From Minisyncoccota bacterium (lineage in GTDB: Bacteria; Patescibacteriota; Minisyncoccia; Minisyncoccales; JAQTVQ01): DNA of 53,156 nt. The translations under genes were made by a program, and so were the position numbers. The notes below the pieces were generated by a model, which saw only the letters and a program-made list of their open reading frames with translations, had not been told where the DNA came from and did no database searches. Shown one piece after another: positions 6,697-50,493 of this stretch. The DNA is taken from assembly GCA_028706715.1 (NCBI GenBank), contig JAQTVQ010000005.1, positions 1-53,156 on the forward strand, in the 5' to 3' direction. Position 1 is the stretch's first letter. The number at the start of each line of letters is the position of its first letter.

Positions 6697-8346
6697 ATGG
6701 AAATTGACTCTGCTGCCAATAAAGAGCGGCGCGCCGAAGAAAAATACAAAATGTGCTGCCATGATTTTCGCGGCGTGGTTTATGGTTCGCCAATTCCGCA
6801 GTTTGTTATCGGCGCCGATCATAAAGTTATTTACTGGAATAATGCCCTGGCAAAATACAGCGGCATTGATGAAAAGGAAGTGGTCGGAACCAATGGGCAG
6901 TGGAAAGCTTTTTACGATCAAGAACGGCCTTGTTTGGCCGATATTTTAGTGGACCAAAAAATAGAGCTTATTCCCGAATTCTATGAAGGGAAATATACCA
7001 AATCAAAATTGGTTGCTGATGCGTACGAAGCAGTTGACTACTTTCCGGGAATGAAAAAATGGCTTTTTTTCACCGCGGCGGTGATGAGAGATGACAGTGG
7101 CGAGATCATCGGCGCCGTAGAAACTTTGGAAGATATAACCGAGCGTAAGGAAGCCGAGAATCGTTTGAAGACAAAAACCGAGAAACTGCAAAAAAATGAG
7201 GAAAAATTGATTGATGCGATCAAAAAATTGGGAGAGGAAAAAGCAAAAGACGATGCAATATTGATGTCTATAGGCGACGGGTTGGTAATAACCGATAATA
7301 GCGGCGGCGTGTTGATGATGAATAATGCCTTTGAAAAAATGATCGGCTGGAGAGCGGATGAAATAACCGGCCGCTCGCTAACTGAAATAATGCCCTGCCG
7401 GGACGAAAAAGGAGATTTGGTTCCTTACGAAAAAAGATTTATTTGCAGAGTAATAGAAGGGGAGGAAACCGGAACCGCGGTGTTTTACTATACGCGAAAG
7501 GACGGCACGTGTTTCCCCGGAGCGGTTACCGTTGCAAGTATTGATTTCGGCGGCGAAAAGCTCGGCGCTGTTTCGGTAATTCGCGATGTTACCAAGGAGA
7601 TAGAACTTGATCGCGCAAAAAGCGAATTCATATCTTTGGCGTCGCACCAGCTGCGCGATGCTCCGACAGCTATCAGATGGTCCACCGAAGCTTTGTTGTC
7701 GGGCATTGCGGGAGAATTGGGAGCAAAGCAAAGGGAATATATTGAAGAGATTTCCCGATGCAACAAGAGCGCCATCGGACTGATAAATGATCTTCTTAAT
7801 GTGTCGCGCCTTGATTTGGGCACCTTTATTGTTGACACTAAAAAAATCTCTCTTGTTGAAATTTGCGAAAGCGAGTTAAAACAGTTTGAAACGCTGATAA
7901 AAGATAAAAGCCTTGAAATAGCGAAAAACTTTTCGTCCGATGTTTCCGAAATAGAAGCTGATCCGCAATTAGTACAGATAATTTTCCAAAATTTAATATC
8001 TAACGCGATATACTATACTCCAGCGAAGGGGAGAATAAGCTTGGCTTTGTCTTTATCTGATGCCGATACCGCATTGTTTTCCATAACGGATACCGGTTTG
8101 GGAATTCCCGAGGAACAAAAGCCGAAAATTTTTGGCAGAATGTTCAGGGCCAGCAATGCTAAAAAAGCGCGGGCGGGCGGAAGCGGGCTTGGTCTTTATG
8201 TAATCAAGCAGATTACGGCTCAAGTTGGATGGAGCATTGGTTTTAAATCCAAGGAAAACGAGGGGACGACCTTTTATGTTGAAATTCCTCTATCGGGAAT
8301 GCCTAAGCGCGACGGACAAACAAAGCTGACAAAAGGCCTTGCGTAA
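6697..8346 (+). CDS. PAS-PAS sensor histidine kinase, soluble
   Basis: A 549-residue two-component kinase without membrane segments. Order: PAS domain about 27-150, coiled linker 150-185, second PAS about 185-300, HisKA dimerisation domain with phospho-acceptor His317 in ASHQLRDAPTAIRW, then an HATPase with the N box around NLISNAIYYTP, G1 DTGLGIP and G2 GGSGLGLYV. It should autophosphorylate in response to a cytoplasmic signal (ligand unknown) and pass phosphate to the receiver at 8420. Odd: the usual LRTPLT after the histidine is LRDAPT, which could alter phosphatase or transfer activity. The gene pair lies between 20-bp inverted repeats. Confidence 0.93.
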   Translation: MEIDSAANKERRAEEKYKMCCHDFRGVVYGSPIPQFVIGADHKVIYWNNALAKYSGIDEKEVVGTNGQWKAFYDQERPCLADILVDQKIELIPEFYEGKYTKSKLVADAYEAVDYFPGMKKWLFFTAAVMRDDSGEIIGAVETLEDITERKEAENRLKTKTEKLQKNEEKLIDAIKKLGEEKAKDDAILMSIGDGLVITDNSGGVLMMNNAFEKMIGWRADEITGRSLTEIMPCRDEKGDLVPYEKRFICRVIEGEETGTAVFYYTRKDGTCFPGAVTVASIDFGGEKLGAVSVIRDVTKEIELDRAKSEFISLASHQLRDAPTAIRWSTEALLSGIAGELGAKQREYIEEISRCNKSAIGLINDLLNVSRLDLGTFIVDTKKISLVEICESELKQFETLIKDKSLEIAKNFSSDVSEIEADPQLVQIIFQNLISNAIYYTPAKGRISLALSLSDADTALFSITDTGLGIPEEQKPKIFGRMFRASNAKKARAGGSGLGLYVIKQITAQVGWSIGFKSKENEGTTFYVEIPLSGMPKRDGQTKLTKGLA

Positions 8347-8419
8347 GCGGCAACAAGGACGGAAGAAGTTTCTTGCCAATATAATTTTTCAGGCTTGGCA
8401 GCCTGATAATTTTACCAAG

Positions 8420-8794
8420 ATGAGCATTAAAAAGAAAATTCTAATAATTGATGACGAGGTTTTTTTGGCGAATGTTTTGAGCGAGCAGCTTGCGCAAGAA
8501 GGCTATGTTTGCGATATTGCCGGGGATGGCAGAGAAGGATTGGAAAAAAGCTTGTCAATCAATCCTGATCTTATCATCCTTGACCTAATAATGCCGGTGA
8601 TGGACGGGTTTACAATGATAGAGAGATTGCGCGCCGACAATCGCGGTAAAAAGATTCCGGTAATTGTTTTATCAAATATTAATAATGCCAAGACTGTAGA
8701 AGAAATGCGTTCTAAAGGCGCGCAGGAGTATTTGGTCAAAGTCAATAATTCTCTTACCGATATCGTAGCGGCGGTAAGCAAGCTGTTGAAATAA
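8420..8794 (+). CDS. Response regulator, receiver domain only
   Basis: A 124-residue CheY-like receiver starting at MSIKKKILIIDDE. An earlier in-frame start at 8339 would overlap the kinase gene and add 27 unconserved residues, so the ATG at 8420 is preferred. The acidic pocket is Asp11-Asp12, the phosphorylation site is Asp55 (LDLIMP), the switch Ser is in VLSN, and the conserved Lys is in YLVKV. There is no output domain, so it signals by protein-protein contact or relays phosphate. It is the likely partner of the PAS kinase 73 bases upstream. Confidence 0.92.
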   Translation: MSIKKKILIIDDEVFLANVLSEQLAQEGYVCDIAGDGREGLEKSLSINPDLIILDLIMPVMDGFTMIERLRADNRGKKIPVIVLSNINNAKTVEEMRSKGAQEYLVKVNNSLTDIVAAVSKLLK

Positions 8795-40850: not shown

Positions 40851-41876
40851 ATGCTGTTTTTAAATCCTTATTCTATTCCGCCGCTGATTGTGTCAATTCT
40901 TTTTTTGCTTTTGGGCTCGGCGATTTATTTCAAGAATAAAAAGTCAAAAGTTAATATTGCCTTTGCTTTAATTTCTATTGTTACTTTTTGGTGGCAGTTC
41001 TCTTGGTTTATACTTTTCAACACGCAGGACGTATTTTTGGCTTCAATTTTGGTAAGATTCGGCTACGTCGGGATAATCTTTATTCCCGTATTTTTTTACC
41101 ATTTTTTTCTTGAATTTTTGGACAAAAACAAGGGGCTTGATAGAAAATTTCTTTTTTTCATATACGGTCTTTCTATCTTCTTTGAATTCTTTTTGCTTTT
41201 TACGGATTTTTTTATACAGGGATATTACGAATATTTTTGGGGAGTTTATCCAAAAGCCGCATGGCTGCATCTTGTTTATTTATTCTTTTTGGCTTTGGGT
41301 TCTTCCAGGGTGGTATATCTTCTTTTTATCTCTTGGAGAAAGAGCAGAGAGGTTGATATTGTTAGATCAAAACAGATAAAACTTTTGCTAATCGGTTTTC
41401 TTATTTATTTTTCGGCCGCTTCTGATTTTTTAGTCAATTACGGGGTGGAATTCTATCCGGTCGGATTTATTTTTGTCTTGATCTGTATGTCTTTGATTGC
41501 TTACGCAATTTCCAAATATCATATGTTTGATGTAAAAATTATTTTGACGGAATTGTTTGTCGGGATTATGTCTGTTACCTCCTTAGCGGAATCTCTGCTT
41601 TTTTACGATTTTTGGTCTAAACTTTTCGGCTTTAGCGTTTTTATTATATTTTGTTTTATGGGCTTTTTGCTTATAAGATATACTACCCGAGAAGTTAAGG
41701 CTAAGGAATTTTTTGAGCAAAAGGTCCAAGAAAGAACTAAGGAGCTGGCTCTTGCGAATAAAGAGCTGCAAGAAAGTAACGACGAGCTGAAAAGATGGTA
41801 CCAGCTAACCATAGGCCGGGAAGTGCGTATGGCCGAGCTAAAAGAGAAAATTAAGGAGATGGAGGGGGAAAGATAA
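40851..41876 (+). CDS. 7TM sensor protein with coiled-coil tail, no kinase domain (1)
   Basis: A 341-residue membrane protein. Seven helices (about 5 to 218) match the N-terminal 7TM region found on histidine kinases; two further helices (about 228-268) lead into a cytoplasmic coiled coil, RTKELALANKELQESNDELKRW, then YQLTIGREVRMAELKEKIKEM and the stop. In related kinases a VGRELKMIELKxEI segment stands before catalytic or PAS domains, so the output part is absent here. Its last 36 codons are identical in DNA to the next gene. It is probably a receptor that signals through a partner kinase. TAA-A-ATG links it to the second copy. Confidence 0.85.
   Translation: MLFLNPYSIPPLIVSILFLLLGSAIYFKNKKSKVNIAFALISIVTFWWQFSWFILFNTQDVFLASILVRFGYVGIIFIPVFFYHFFLEFLDKNKGLDRKFLFFIYGLSIFFEFFLLFTDFFIQGYYEYFWGVYPKAAWLHLVYLFFLALGSSRVVYLLFISWRKSREVDIVRSKQIKLLLIGFLIYFSAASDFLVNYGVEFYPVGFIFVLICMSLIAYAISKYHMFDVKIILTELFVGIMSVTSLAESLLFYDFWSKLFGFSVFIIFCFMGFLLIRYTTREVKAKEFFEQKVQERTKELALANKELQESNDELKRWYQLTIGREVRMAELKEKIKEMEGER
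41760..41867 (+). repeat. 108-bp direct repeat, copy 1 (3' end of 7TM gene 1)
   Basis: Identical base for base to 42757-42864, 997 bases downstream, while the rest of the two genes is much less alike. Confidence 0.95.
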
Positions 41877-41877
41877 A

Positions 41878-42873
41878 ATGTTAATAATATATCTTACTAT
41901 ATCAAGTTTTATAAATGCCATTACCACGACTGTCTTGGGAATTTTAGTTTATATAAAAAACAGAAAAAATCTTTTAAATAAAACTTTTTCTCTTTTTTGC
42001 GCAAGCGTTGCCGCATGGTCATGGCCTTATTTTCTTTGGATGCTCATCGGCAAAACTCAAGAGTCGGCTCTTTTTTGGTCTACGGCTCTTAATGTAGGAG
42101 CTATTTTCACTCCGATTACTTATCTTCATTTTGTTTCTGTTTTCTTGAAAATATATGAAGAAAAAAAGAAGCTGATAAAAATCGGATGGATTTTTTCTTT
42201 ACTGGTTTTTATAACAGGATTTACTCCTTTATTCATAAAGGGAGTTAGGCCCCAAGGTTTAATTGATTGGTATCCTGTCCCCGGTCCGGCCTACCATCCC
42301 TTCCTTTTAGTCTTTGGTATTTTTGTTTTTTATTGCTGGTATTTAATGTTTAAAGCATTAAAAAAGAATAAAGGAGAATCCGGGCTTCCGATAAGATATG
42401 TATTGATAGGAACATTGCTTGGTTTTACCGGCGGAGCCACTAATTTTTTAAATTTATACAATATTCCCATTCCTCCTTACGGACACGGCTTGGTAGTTTT
42501 TGTATTTATTTTTACCGGTTTGGCAATTTTGAAATATCATTTGTTTGAAATAAGAATAGTTTTGACCGAGCTTTTGGTTTTTACCATAGCGGGAATTTCA
42601 TTGGTTCAAGCTTTTCTCTTTCAGACTTTTTGGACTAAACTTTTAGGACTCGGAGTTTTTGGATTATTTTGCCTTATAGGCTATCTTTTAATTAAGAGTA
42701 TGCACAAAGAGATTCAAGCCAAAGATGAGCTGGAACAGAAAGTCCGGGACCGCACCAAAGAGCTGCAAGAAAGTAACGACGAGCTGAAAAGATGGTACCA
42801 GCTAACCATAGGCCGGGAAGTGCGTATGGCCGAGCTAAAAGAGAAAATTAAGGAGATGGAGGGGAAGAAATAG
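41878..42873 (+). CDS. 7TM sensor protein with coiled-coil tail, no kinase domain (2)
   Basis: A 331-residue relative of the preceding protein with the same layout: 7TM region, two extra helices (around IRIVLTELLVFTIAGISLVQAFLF), and a coiled coil with the tail WYQLTIGREVRMAELKEKIKEM. No HisKA or HATPase follows; the gene stops just after the tail. The membrane part differs clearly from copy 1, so the two may sense different signals but present the same output helix. Start lies one base after the stop of copy 1, so the two are translated together. Confidence 0.85.
   Translation: MLIIYLTISSFINAITTTVLGILVYIKNRKNLLNKTFSLFCASVAAWSWPYFLWMLIGKTQESALFWSTALNVGAIFTPITYLHFVSVFLKIYEEKKKLIKIGWIFSLLVFITGFTPLFIKGVRPQGLIDWYPVPGPAYHPFLLVFGIFVFYCWYLMFKALKKNKGESGLPIRYVLIGTLLGFTGGATNFLNLYNIPIPPYGHGLVVFVFIFTGLAILKYHLFEIRIVLTELLVFTIAGISLVQAFLFQTFWTKLLGLGVFGLFCLIGYLLIKSMHKEIQAKDELEQKVRDRTKELQESNDELKRWYQLTIGREVRMAELKEKIKEMEGKK
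42757..42864 (+). repeat. 108-bp direct repeat, copy 2 (3' end of 7TM gene 2)
   Basis: Exact match to 41760-41867, including third codon positions, so gene conversion or recent duplication is likely. Confidence 0.95.
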
Positions 42874-44281: not shown

Positions 44282-44322
44282 AAAATTTCGTATCGGTATA
44301 ATTGGTTAGGAGAAAAAGATAT

Positions 44323-45861
44323 ATGGCAAAAAATAAAAAAGAAAAGAAAAGAGAGCCAGTTAAAAAAGAGCCTTTGAGTCCAAAAGGCAAAGCTAAAAAT
44401 TTGCAAAAAACAAGTTTTCAAAAACCTTTTTTGAAGAATAAAAAAAATAAATCAGCAAAGAAGCCGGCAAAGAAGATAAAATCAGAGAAACCAAGCTTGG
44501 CCGAGAAGGAAGAGAAATTTAGAGCGGACGCTTTGGAGGTGAAAAAAGTGGAAGTAAGAGTCGTTGGAATAGGCGGAGGAGGAGGAAATATTGTTTCGGA
44601 ATTATCGCAAAGGCTGGCGGAATTTTCTTCCAAGAAAATAGATTTTGTAGCGGCCAATACCGATATGCAGGCCTTAAAAGCCGTTCCCAAAAGAGTAAAT
44701 TCTTTTGCTTTTGGGAAAGAAATGACAAAAGGCTTGGGCACCGGCCGCAATCGTTTTGTAGGGGAAGCGGCGGCTAAAAAGGAAGAGGAAAGGATAAAGA
44801 ATATTTTTTCGCCTCAAAAAGATTTGTTTATTTTGGTTTCTTCCTTGGGAGGAGGAACGGGAACCGGGGCGACTCCGGTTTTCGCCAAGATAGCCCATGA
44901 TCTTAATTCAAAAACGCTTGGGATTTTTACTTTGCCTTTTGCTTTTGAAGGAAAAGACAAATTAAAATCAGCCCGCGAAGCTTTGGAGAAAATACAAAGC
45001 AATTTAAACGCTGTTTTGGTTCTTCCGAATGACAAAATTTTTCAATTAACAAAAGAGGAAACTCCCTTCCATACCGCGCTTTCTCTTTTGAACAGGCACA
45101 TAGCAAATTCTTTGGAAGGCCTTTTGAGAGTGATCTATATCCCCGGACTTATCAATATTGACTGGGCGGACGTTAAAACCATTTTGGAAGGAAAGAGCCA
45201 AACAGCTTATTTGAATACTGCCCAAGTTTCGGCTTCAATTCCGGCTTTTTCAAAAGATTCTTCTTTGAAGGAAGATAAGTCTGCCGGTGAAAAATCTTTA
45301 GCGGATTCAAAAAAAGAAAAAAGAACGCTGGAAGATTTTGCCAAAGCGCTTTTAATAAGTCCGATTTTGGATTATAATTTTTCGCAAGCCGAGAATATTT
45401 TATTTAATATTGAAAGCTCTAAAAATATTTCCTTGGAACAGCTGATGGCTATTAGCGAAAAAATACATTCAACGGCTCCGCAAGCAAAAATAATCTTTGG
45501 ACTGTCCCAGTCTCCAAATTTAAAGGATGTTATAAAAGCCACTATTTTGGCTACTGGCAGCGCTGAAAAAAAAGCCAAGAAGGCCATTTCCGGAAAGAAA
45601 AGAACAGCCAAAAAAATAAATAAAAAAAATAAAATAAATAAAAAAGAATCTGCCGATGCCGGCGATGAAAAAAAGGAAATAAACACCGAAGAAGAAGATG
45701 AAAAAGAGATTGAAAGAAAAATAAAAATAAGAAGAAACGCTCTTGAGATTAAAAAGGCGGAGAGGGAAGAAACCGAAAAAGAGGACGAGAAAGATAAAAT
45801 TTTTGAAATACCGGCCTTTTTAAGAAGAGGGGACGCTGACAGCGGCCAGCCGGAAGAATAA
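44323..45861 (+). CDS. Divergent FtsZ-like GTPase with basic N-terminal extension
   Basis: A 512-residue tubulin-family protein. About 70 lysine-rich residues precede the GTPase domain (VVGIGGGGGNIV). The nucleotide loop LGGGTGTGATP (175-185), PFAFEG, and the T7 catalytic loop NIDWADV (278-284) are kept. After the T7 loop there is an extra charged segment, and the C-terminus has a long Lys/Glu linker ending in EIPAFLRRG, like the FtsZ tail peptide that binds FtsA/ZipA. The nucleotide-loop block GLGTGRN replaces the usual GLGAGGN. TTG at 44302 is in frame, but the ATG at 44323 is preferred, with GGAG at 44310-44313. No ftsA or ftsQ is near. It may be the main FtsZ or a paralogue. Confidence 0.85.
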   Translation: MAKNKKEKKREPVKKEPLSPKGKAKNLQKTSFQKPFLKNKKNKSAKKPAKKIKSEKPSLAEKEEKFRADALEVKKVEVRVVGIGGGGGNIVSELSQRLAEFSSKKIDFVAANTDMQALKAVPKRVNSFAFGKEMTKGLGTGRNRFVGEAAAKKEEERIKNIFSPQKDLFILVSSLGGGTGTGATPVFAKIAHDLNSKTLGIFTLPFAFEGKDKLKSAREALEKIQSNLNAVLVLPNDKIFQLTKEETPFHTALSLLNRHIANSLEGLLRVIYIPGLINIDWADVKTILEGKSQTAYLNTAQVSASIPAFSKDSSLKEDKSAGEKSLADSKKEKRTLEDFAKALLISPILDYNFSQAENILFNIESSKNISLEQLMAISEKIHSTAPQAKIIFGLSQSPNLKDVIKATILATGSAEKKAKKAISGKKRTAKKINKKNKINKKESADAGDEKKEINTEEEDEKEIERKIKIRRNALEIKKAEREETEKEDEKDKIFEIPAFLRRGDADSGQPEE

Positions 45862-49039: not shown

Positions 49040-50092
49040 ATGAATTTATTGCCATCTTTTGTCCTGCAGGTTTTAACGATCTTTCTTTGGTCGGGAACGA
49101 TTTTAAGTTTGTTTTTCGGCGCATTTACATGGACAAGGAACAAAAAATCTTTAATTAATATCCTTTTTGCTTTTGTTTCTTTTTCCGTTGCGATTTGGCT
49201 GGGCGCCAGCGTGCCGATGCTGAATAGCTGCCGAGTAAAAGAAGCGGCTTACTTTTGGGACAAAGTGGTTTATTGCGGAGTGGTTTTTATCCCTATTTTT
49301 TTACTGCATTTTTCATTGGTTTTAGGAAAAGAAAAAAATAAAATATACAAAATTATTGTTCCTTTGGGATACGTAATCGCAACTATTTTTTTGTTTTCAA
49401 TTTGGTTTTTCCCGCAATTTTTTATCAAAGGCCTTTTTGTTTACAAATGGGGATGCCACAGCATAGCCCAGCCCGGACACAATTATTTTCTTGCTTATTT
49501 TGTCGGCTATCTGCTTTTGTTTTTTTATAAAATTTTCCGTCTTTGGAGGACTTCAAGAGATCCGGACATAAAAACCCAAAGCAAATATATCTTTTATTCG
49601 TTCTTGTTCCTTTTTGCCAGCTCTTTGGCTTTTCTGCCGGGCTATCAAATTCCCGTTTTTCCGATAGCCTATGTTTTTCCCTTGATTTGGATTCTTATCC
49701 TTACTTACGCCATTACCCAGCATAATCTGTTGAGCGCGAAAGTTATTATTATAGATGTGCTTGCCGCTTTGGTTATTTTTACGGTTTTGGTTTATGTCAT
49801 GCTGTCCGGCGGAACGGAAGACATAATTGTCAGACTTGCTTTTCTGTCTTTGATTTTCTTTTTTGCCAGCTTGGCCGTTAGGGGAGTTCATCGCGAGATG
49901 AACGAAAAAGAAAGGCTTAATGCGATAGTCGCAGAGAGGACCAAGGATCTTGAACAGGCCAAAAAAGTGGCGGAAGATCGCGCCGCCGAGCTGGAAAGAT
50001 GGTATAACGCTACAATCGGCAGAGAAGTAAGAATGGCCGAGCTTAAGGAGAAGATAAAAGAACTGGAAAAAAATAATTTGGAAAAAAATTAA
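49040..50092 (+). CDS. 7TM sensor protein with coiled-coil tail, no kinase domain (3)
   Basis: A 350-residue third member of the family at 40851 and 41878. Seven helices plus two, then a coiled coil (about 283-317, AIVAERTKDLEQAKKVAEDRAAELE) and the tail RWYNATIGREVRMAELKEKIKEL, then the stop. It differs in sequence from the other two but keeps the tail. It is followed after 20 bases by a receiver-only response regulator, so a two-component link without a kinase domain is suggested. Located inside the glycolysis cluster. Confidence 0.83.
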   Translation: MNLLPSFVLQVLTIFLWSGTILSLFFGAFTWTRNKKSLINILFAFVSFSVAIWLGASVPMLNSCRVKEAAYFWDKVVYCGVVFIPIFLLHFSLVLGKEKNKIYKIIVPLGYVIATIFLFSIWFFPQFFIKGLFVYKWGCHSIAQPGHNYFLAYFVGYLLLFFYKIFRLWRTSRDPDIKTQSKYIFYSFLFLFASSLAFLPGYQIPVFPIAYVFPLIWILILTYAITQHNLLSAKVIIIDVLAALVIFTVLVYVMLSGGTEDIIVRLAFLSLIFFFASLAVRGVHREMNEKERLNAIVAERTKDLEQAKKVAEDRAAELERWYNATIGREVRMAELKEKIKELEKNNLEKN

Positions 50093-50112: not shown

Positions 50113-50493
50113 ATGCCGTATAAAATTTTATTAGCGGAAGACGACCCTTTTTTAATTGATATTTATTCAACCAAATTCAAGAGCGTTGGATTTGATTTGA
50201 GTTTGGCGGAATCCGGAGACCAGGTCTTGGCAAAGCTTAAAGAATCCAAGCCGGATCTTTTGCTTTTGGATATTGTTTTGCCTGGAATATCAGGCTGGGA
50301 AGCTTTGGCGGAAATCAAAAAAGACCCCCAATTCAATTCGTTAAAAGTTATAGTGCTCTCTAACTTAGGGCAGAGAAGCGAAGTGGAAAAAGGCATAGAA
50401 ATGGGAGCTGACGGATATTTGATTAAAGCTCATTATACCCCGACTCAAATAGTTGAAGAGATTAACAAGATTTTAGACAAGAAGGCGGAATGA
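50113..50493 (+). CDS. Response regulator, receiver domain only
   Basis: A 126-residue CheY-like domain. Acidic pocket Glu9-Asp10-Asp11, phosphorylation site Asp53 in LLLDIVLPG, switch Ser in VLSN, conserved Lys in YLIKAHY. No output domain. It follows the third 7TM sensor and overlaps the start of apgM by four bases (ATGA). Its kinase is not beside it; the PAS kinase at 6697 or another elsewhere must phosphorylate it if it is a phosphoprotein. Confidence 0.92.
   Translation: MPYKILLAEDDPFLIDIYSTKFKSVGFDLSLAESGDQVLAKLKESKPDLLLLDIVLPGISGWEALAEIKKDPQFNSLKVIVLSNLGQRSEVEKGIEMGADGYLIKAHYTPTQIVEEINKILDKKAE

Follow-up and report, generated by a model that had tools for sequence, protein, structure and literature searches.

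Kinase-less 7TM receptors of a Minisyncoccota bacterium share a conserved C-terminal tail that may serve a separate histidine kinase

Two neighbouring genes of a Minisyncoccota bacterium encode membrane receptors, designated A and B, that are probably (we put the probability at about two in three) the kinase-less inputs of a split two-component system, in which a conserved C-terminal peptide, the tail, would plug in trans into a separate histidine kinase carrying a coiled-coil motif termed NLED. This reading is based on the conservation of the tail, its C-terminal position, the lack of a kinase core in the same chain, the adjacency to kinase genes in operons and co-occurrence. Both genes are members of a large and apparently undescribed class of bacterial and archaeal sensors without a kinase that end in one peptide. 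A and B are located in a window of 53,156 nucleotides, i.e., the whole stretch of DNA that was analysed (JAQTVQ010000005.1), which is contig C3 of a 755-kb Patescibacteria genome that is 97% complete (Table 1).

Table 1. Positions of the receptors, the shared tract and the two-component genes in the window
Feature	Position	Strand	Length
Receptor A: 7TM (HisKA_7TM), coiled coil and C-terminal tail, without kinase	40851..41876	+	341 aa
Receptor B: 7TM (HisKA_7TM), coiled coil and C-terminal tail, without kinase	41878..42873	+	331 aa
Tract in A, tail coding, identical to 42757-42864 in B	41760..41867	+	108 nt
Tract in B, tail coding, identical to 41760-41867 in A	42757..42864	+	108 nt
Receptor C: third 7TM-like receptor with the same tail	49040..50092	+	350 aa
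Tail region of receptor C (ERWYNATIGREVRMAELKEKIKELEK)	49946..50089	+	
Receiver-only response regulator directly 3' of receptor C	50113..50493	+	
PAS-PAS-HK, only histidine kinase in the window, without NLED	6697..8346	+	
Receiver-only response regulator of the window kinase, outside the receptor set	8339..8794	+	

The open reading frames of receptors A and B are both intact, and their products match the Pfam family HisKA_7TM (PF16927) over residues 13–228 (E value 1.5e-14) and 11–225 (E value 9e-15), respectively. No further Pfam match above the cut-off was obtained for either protein, including HisKA, HATPase_c and the MCPsignal hairpin domain. At the C-terminus of both, a coiled coil is followed by WYQLTIGREVRMAELKEKIKEME, and the final stretch behind the ERT-type coiled coil is WYQLTIGREVRMAELKEKIKEMEG. 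The ERT signature 5' of the tail, DRTKEL/ERTKEL, was recognised in receptors A, B and C by reading of the sequence, without an S-helix profile. An earlier note on this DNA had described two adjacent 7TM genes that continue through a coiled coil and a tail to a stop codon, with neither HisKA nor HATPase in or near them, and this description was confirmed. No kinase core is present near A and B in any frame; the sole kinase of the window is 32 kb away, which excludes a frameshifted or adjoining kinase for the pair. A structure of receptor B predicted from four sequences includes a tail helix at residues 302–330, but the model is weak (mean pLDDT 61), too weak for a fold search.

The 108 identical bases reported in the note were recovered at exactly the same coordinates and constitute the longest exact tract common to the two genes. 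Outside of this tract, protein identity between A and B is 32% (294 aligned positions), and the same codon is used at 41 of 90 identical residues, a value that represents saturation. In the tail, the same codon is used at 29/29 identical residues, and the tract is thus far beyond chance (0.46^29, ~2e-10). The combination of saturated codons outside and complete codon agreement in the tail indicates a recent exchange between old paralogues rather than a recent gene duplication; the tract is a recent homogenisation, by gene conversion or recombination. The tail of receptor D has a milder same-codon excess with A and B (17/23 and 17/24), and an older tail exchange with this receptor is possible. 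Among the other receptor pairs, the same-codon share of the tail is 38–64%, near the background expected of saturated synonymous codons, and the tail peptide is therefore held there by selection. The idea that gene conversion keeps the tails alike is thus supported by the synonymous comparison for the A/B tract, but not as a general mechanism of homogenisation.

The picture in the earlier note was too narrow: receptor C in the window and another four tail receptors elsewhere in the genome had been missed, and the tail system is not confined to 7TM receptors. The tail closes seven sensors in this genome (A–G). Receptor C is 29% identical to B. Receptor D, on contig C18, has a frameshifted start, its first TM helices lying in another frame through an indel (L017:4246-4349) that reflects an assembly error or a decaying gene. 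Receptor E is also encoded on C18, flanked by the gene for HK515, a 7TM histidine kinase, and by a receiver gene. Receptor F (contig C7) combines the 7TM part with a GAF-like segment, while receptor G (contig C22) has a periplasmic sensor and a HAMP-like segment and opens the operon G, HK399, receiver, receiver. A sister species keeps this operon, with a tail protein of 337 aa, HK399 and a receiver (L181). The genes for A, B, D and F adjoin no kinase gene, and none of the five kinases of the genome carries the tail (0/5). The NLED motif is found once in the genome, in HK399 (C22:62105-62209), a 399-aa soluble PAS kinase with no evident membrane segment. HK515 is without NLED; the window kinase lacks it too and is distant from A and B, for which reasons it is not expected to be their direct partner.

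Scans of Patescibacteria genomes and GTDB contigs yielded 137 tail ORFs in 107 loci, a few of which overlap. The tail has the consensus ELE-R-[WF]-[YN]-K-L-T-[IV]-G-R-E-[LV]-[KR]-M-x-E-L-K. In bacteria, it was found in Patescibacteria, Bacteroidota, several proteobacterial groups, Elusimicrobia, Anaerolineae and Neomarinimicrobiota and, in archaea, in Altiarchaeota, Nanoarchaeota, Methanosarcinales and Thermoplasmata. Alignment of 118 full proteins shows no exception to the central Arg and more than 90% conservation of the E, M, L and K residues; the segment G-R-E-x-[KR]-M-x-E-L-K is kept from archaea to Patescibacteria, and the tails of A and B include the C-terminal R-E-x-x-M-x-E-L-K. The Arg is located a median of 26 residues from the C-terminus, and at most 45 residues from it in 119 of 126 proteins. 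The motif has no His and no match to HisKA, and no kinase core was found in the same chain among the surveyed tail proteins. The Pfam domains of the 118 proteins include PAS types (up to 60), HAMP (24), dCache (13), GAF (9), HisKA_7TM (9) and receiver (4), along with CHASE4, 5TM-LYT and CHASE; MCPsignal is not among the 25 commonest families. These counts, seven sensors in this genome and more than 130 elsewhere, none with a kinase core in its chain, bear out the suggestion of receptors that combine exchangeable sensors with one shared output peptide. Two other assignments of the tail were considered. A generic coiled coil was ruled out by the conserved motif residues and the narrow distribution, and a degenerate HisKA H-box was dropped, the resemblance (RELRM vs HELRT) being visual alone and shifted by one residue relative to the preceding Phe. 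A Methanosarcinales locus (L084:1-8045) contains five consecutive tail sensors uninterrupted by a kinase; that genome (G495) encodes an NLED kinase elsewhere. In four loci from different proteobacterial MAGs (L076, L087, L088 and L108), a tail protein of ~450 aa has near-identical C-terminal regions, and these genomes also encode an NLED kinase elsewhere.

For the 124 tail genes with enough downstream sequence, a kinase gene begins no more than 1 kb downstream in 44 cases, irrespective of strand. Background bins at 5–8 kb downstream contain 1 kinase per 90, 0 per 52 and 1 per 10, and kinases upstream of tail genes amount to 7 per 120, again irrespective of strand. Thirty of the downstream kinases are on the same strand at gaps of -40 to +61 nt, and the start and stop codons of tail gene and kinase often overlap or lie a few bases apart. 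The putative partner kinases are of the ordinary HisKA type, usually PAS-HisKA-HATPase. Their coiled coil, ahead of the PAS-DHp or DHp module, includes the NLED motif LE-x3-K-A-x-L-N-[IVL]-[LM]-E-D (core A-x-x-N-[IVL]-[LM]-E-D), which was first spotted with a loose pattern, before the profile. Among 43 sequences, the D is invariant, while the A and the N are conserved in 98% and 95%, respectively. Of the 31 kinases encoded immediately behind a tail gene, 29 have NLED according to the profile, a figure that is partly circular because the profile was built from such tail-adjacent kinases. The loci contain 52 NLED ORFs; profile matches identify 45 as kinases, and the remainder are mostly truncated at contig ends or include a receiver. 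Homology between the tail and NLED helices was ruled out by hhalign (0.7% probability), and contact between them therefore cannot be argued from homology. In five loci from Bacteroidota and relatives (L075, L077, L078, L092 and L100), a recurring cluster consists of a tail sensor, next a hybrid kinase without NLED and finally a receiver-first protein with NLED, the latter being a kinase by profile in all except L077. Two tail proteins (L102:8237-9583 and L109:1128-2471) also have an NLED segment, with weak profile scores; judging from their sequences, they could receive and signal onward, like relays.

Co-occurrence was evaluated in 287 Patescibacteria genomes at cut-offs of E ≤ 1e-3 for the tail (35 genomes) and E ≤ 0.01 for NLED (34 genomes). 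Both are present in 32 genomes, the tail only in 3, NLED only in 2 and neither in 250 (Fisher 1e-36, a value that ignores phylogeny and the horizontal transfer of whole operons); HisKA is present in 246 of the same 287 genomes. Because the training set of the main NLED profile consisted of tail-adjacent kinases, adjacency and co-occurrence are partly built into these figures, a circularity avoided only by the blind and independent tests. A blind profile, made from non-Patescibacteria only, identified NLED in 24 genomes at E ≤ 0.01, of which 23 are tail-positive (Fisher 4e-24, without phylogenetic correction); its matches at E 0.012–0.05 were discarded, being mostly another ORF type of ~340 aa. 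In an independent second sample, NLED was found in 10 of 13 new tail genomes and in one genome without the tail (Fisher ~1e-10, assuming ~90 new genomes with neither and uncorrected for phylogeny). An NLED kinase was also found in 18 of 22 tail genomes outside the profile, most of them chosen since the surveyed tail locus showed no NLED kinase; in seven loci so found, a tail gene is directly upstream of the NLED kinase. Genomes G087 and G143 were first recognised by their NLED kinase, and the adjoining tail was detected only with a wider profile. No NLED was detected in tail genomes G047, G049, G276, G304, G344, G372, G490, G494, G499 and G503. The operon context and the near-perfect co-occurrence with one kinase motif agree with the claim of the earlier note that the tail serves a separate kinase, to which it may dock.

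The co-occurrence of the tail with NLED kinases suggests a plug-and-socket arrangement in which many receptors feed one kinase. In the proposed mechanism, the 7TM domain would sense a signal and relay it via the S-helix-like coiled coil to the C-terminal peptide. The tail of a receptor dimer would then bind, in trans, the NLED coiled coil of the separate kinase, on the input side of its PAS-DHp or DHp module, and docking would change autophosphorylation. The tail offers a conserved basic/acidic motif past the helix, and the partner an acidic, Asn-containing helix at the PAS-DHp entrance; physical contact between the two we infer, as we do its geometry and stoichiometry and the sign of regulation. 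Because HK399 is the only NLED kinase in the genome, all seven receptors would likely share it as one hub, as chemoreceptors share CheA. Furthermore, HK399 has no evident membrane segment and would thus need a partner for sensing outside signals. A and B presumably use HK399, the only candidate, although HK515 beside E stays a rival. Whether a general wiring code exists, whereby any sensor with a GRExKM tail feeds any kinase with an NLED coiled coil, we regard as an even bet. If so, bacteria and archaea would build many-receptors-to-one-kinase networks outside chemotaxis.

It is unlikely, in our judgement, that the tail merely caps solitary sensors structurally or dimerises them as a coiled coil, and that NLED has spread with it in shared operons without docking. 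Both segments are coiled-coil-like, and common operon linkage could alone produce the co-occurrence. A generic cap would, however, not be expected to keep G-R-E-x-[KR]-M-x-E-L-K from archaea to Patescibacteria; moreover, some tail genomes encode an NLED kinase away from the surveyed tail, and the present genome retains seven tails and one NLED kinase. The position of receptor E between HK515 and a receiver gene, together with the fusion of 7TM to kinase in most relatives in the order, would fit hetero-oligomerisation of the 7TM receptors with HK515 via their membrane domains, the tail being secondary. HK515 lacks NLED, however, and tail proteins of other genomes mostly lack a 7TM part and adjoin kinases with unrelated sensors, which leaves this model distinctly improbable. 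We give still less credence to a tail that binds and controls receiver-only response regulators, e.g., as a phosphatase-stimulating or localising element: a receiver gene does follow receptor C and receivers occur within four surveyed tail proteins, but beside tails they are much rarer than kinases (2 vs 20 directly downstream in Patescibacteria). Finally, despite the frameshifted start of D and the failure to find a relative with the A/B tandem that would confirm the tract, it is hardly credible that the genes are decayed histidine kinases minus the catalytic part and the tract an assembly or recent duplication artefact, since conservation of the tail residues extends across more than 130 proteins, the reading frames of A and B are unbroken, D carries a related tail independently on another contig, and an assembly duplication of the locus, which the note had named as a possible refutation, cannot yield two genes that are 32% identical outside the tract.

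Many kinase-less chemoreceptors (MCP) feed one separate kinase, CheA. The tail system resembles this arrangement in that many kinase-less membrane receptors would address a separate histidine kinase via a conserved cytoplasmic element, but no MCP signalling hairpin, CheW or CheA is seen in it; it employs instead a short C-terminal peptide and a HisKA kinase with the NLED coiled coil. An ERT-type coiled coil upstream of many tails and NLED motifs recalls the S-helix, which is almost always placed between two signalling domains within a single chain (Anantharaman, Balaji and Aravind 2006, PMC1592074). A coiled coil at the end of a sensor normally leads into the kinase of its own chain (PMC1592074). 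In the tail proteins, by contrast, the chain ends after the tail, and the invariant residues of the tail motif are not those of the ERT signature. Auxiliary regulators such as QseG, acting on QseE, are also separate proteins that modulate a kinase in trans (PMC6075780, PMC12691602), but they are individual accessory proteins, whereas the tail is common to unrelated sensors of many phyla and linked to one kinase motif. Archaeal non-enzymatic HK-like proteins (PMC5847659) are likewise sensors without a catalytic domain near two-component genes; they retain HisKA with the phospho-accepting His and lack HATPase, while the tail has neither HisKA nor His.

No family describing the tail is present among those listed in Pfam and NCBIfam, and no description of NLED was found in Pfam, NCBIfam, the PDB or the open literature searched. 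Among solved structures, the tail gave only chance or generic coiled-coil matches and NLED none. Six tail strings are absent from the 5.39 million open papers searched (subscription journals and preprints being outside the scope), and the open literature on kinase-less sensors and auxiliary regulators contains no description of the tail system that we could find. These searches, which are not exhaustive, agree with the earlier claim of an undescribed system. PAS, GAF, Cache and 7TM sensors without an output domain are often annotated as incomplete or misannotated as kinases; if the proposal is true, the tail and the kinase motif would give such sensors a function, with partners predictable from sequence. 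It would also represent a second widespread many-receptors-to-one-kinase solution besides chemotaxis, and the tail and NLED would provide a ready module for sensor building.

Receptors A and B have the same 7TM input module as the HisKA_7TM kinases (PF16927), and their nearest homologues in the order are kinase-fused; the difference is that the tail replaces the kinase. For the 7TM part of B, kinase-fused proteins of the order are the closest relatives (47% and 44%), ahead of A (41%). In a 7TM tree, tail and kinase forms are mixed, with 5 changes and weak supports, and 0 of 200 bootstrap trees have a single change. The mixed tree and the kinase-fused relatives of B suggest that kinase and tail may have been exchanged repeatedly behind the same sensor.

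Two further genes of this genome were recorded in passing. The methionyl-tRNA synthetase on C7 (L019:3292-4806) includes a short repeated insert, AMAGEARSGEARSGEAR, within the enzyme, like an in-frame repeat element. In the window, positions 44302–45861 encode an FtsZ/tubulin-like protein with the motifs GGGGGNIV and GGGTGTGATP, a long lysine-rich N-terminus and a charged C-terminus.
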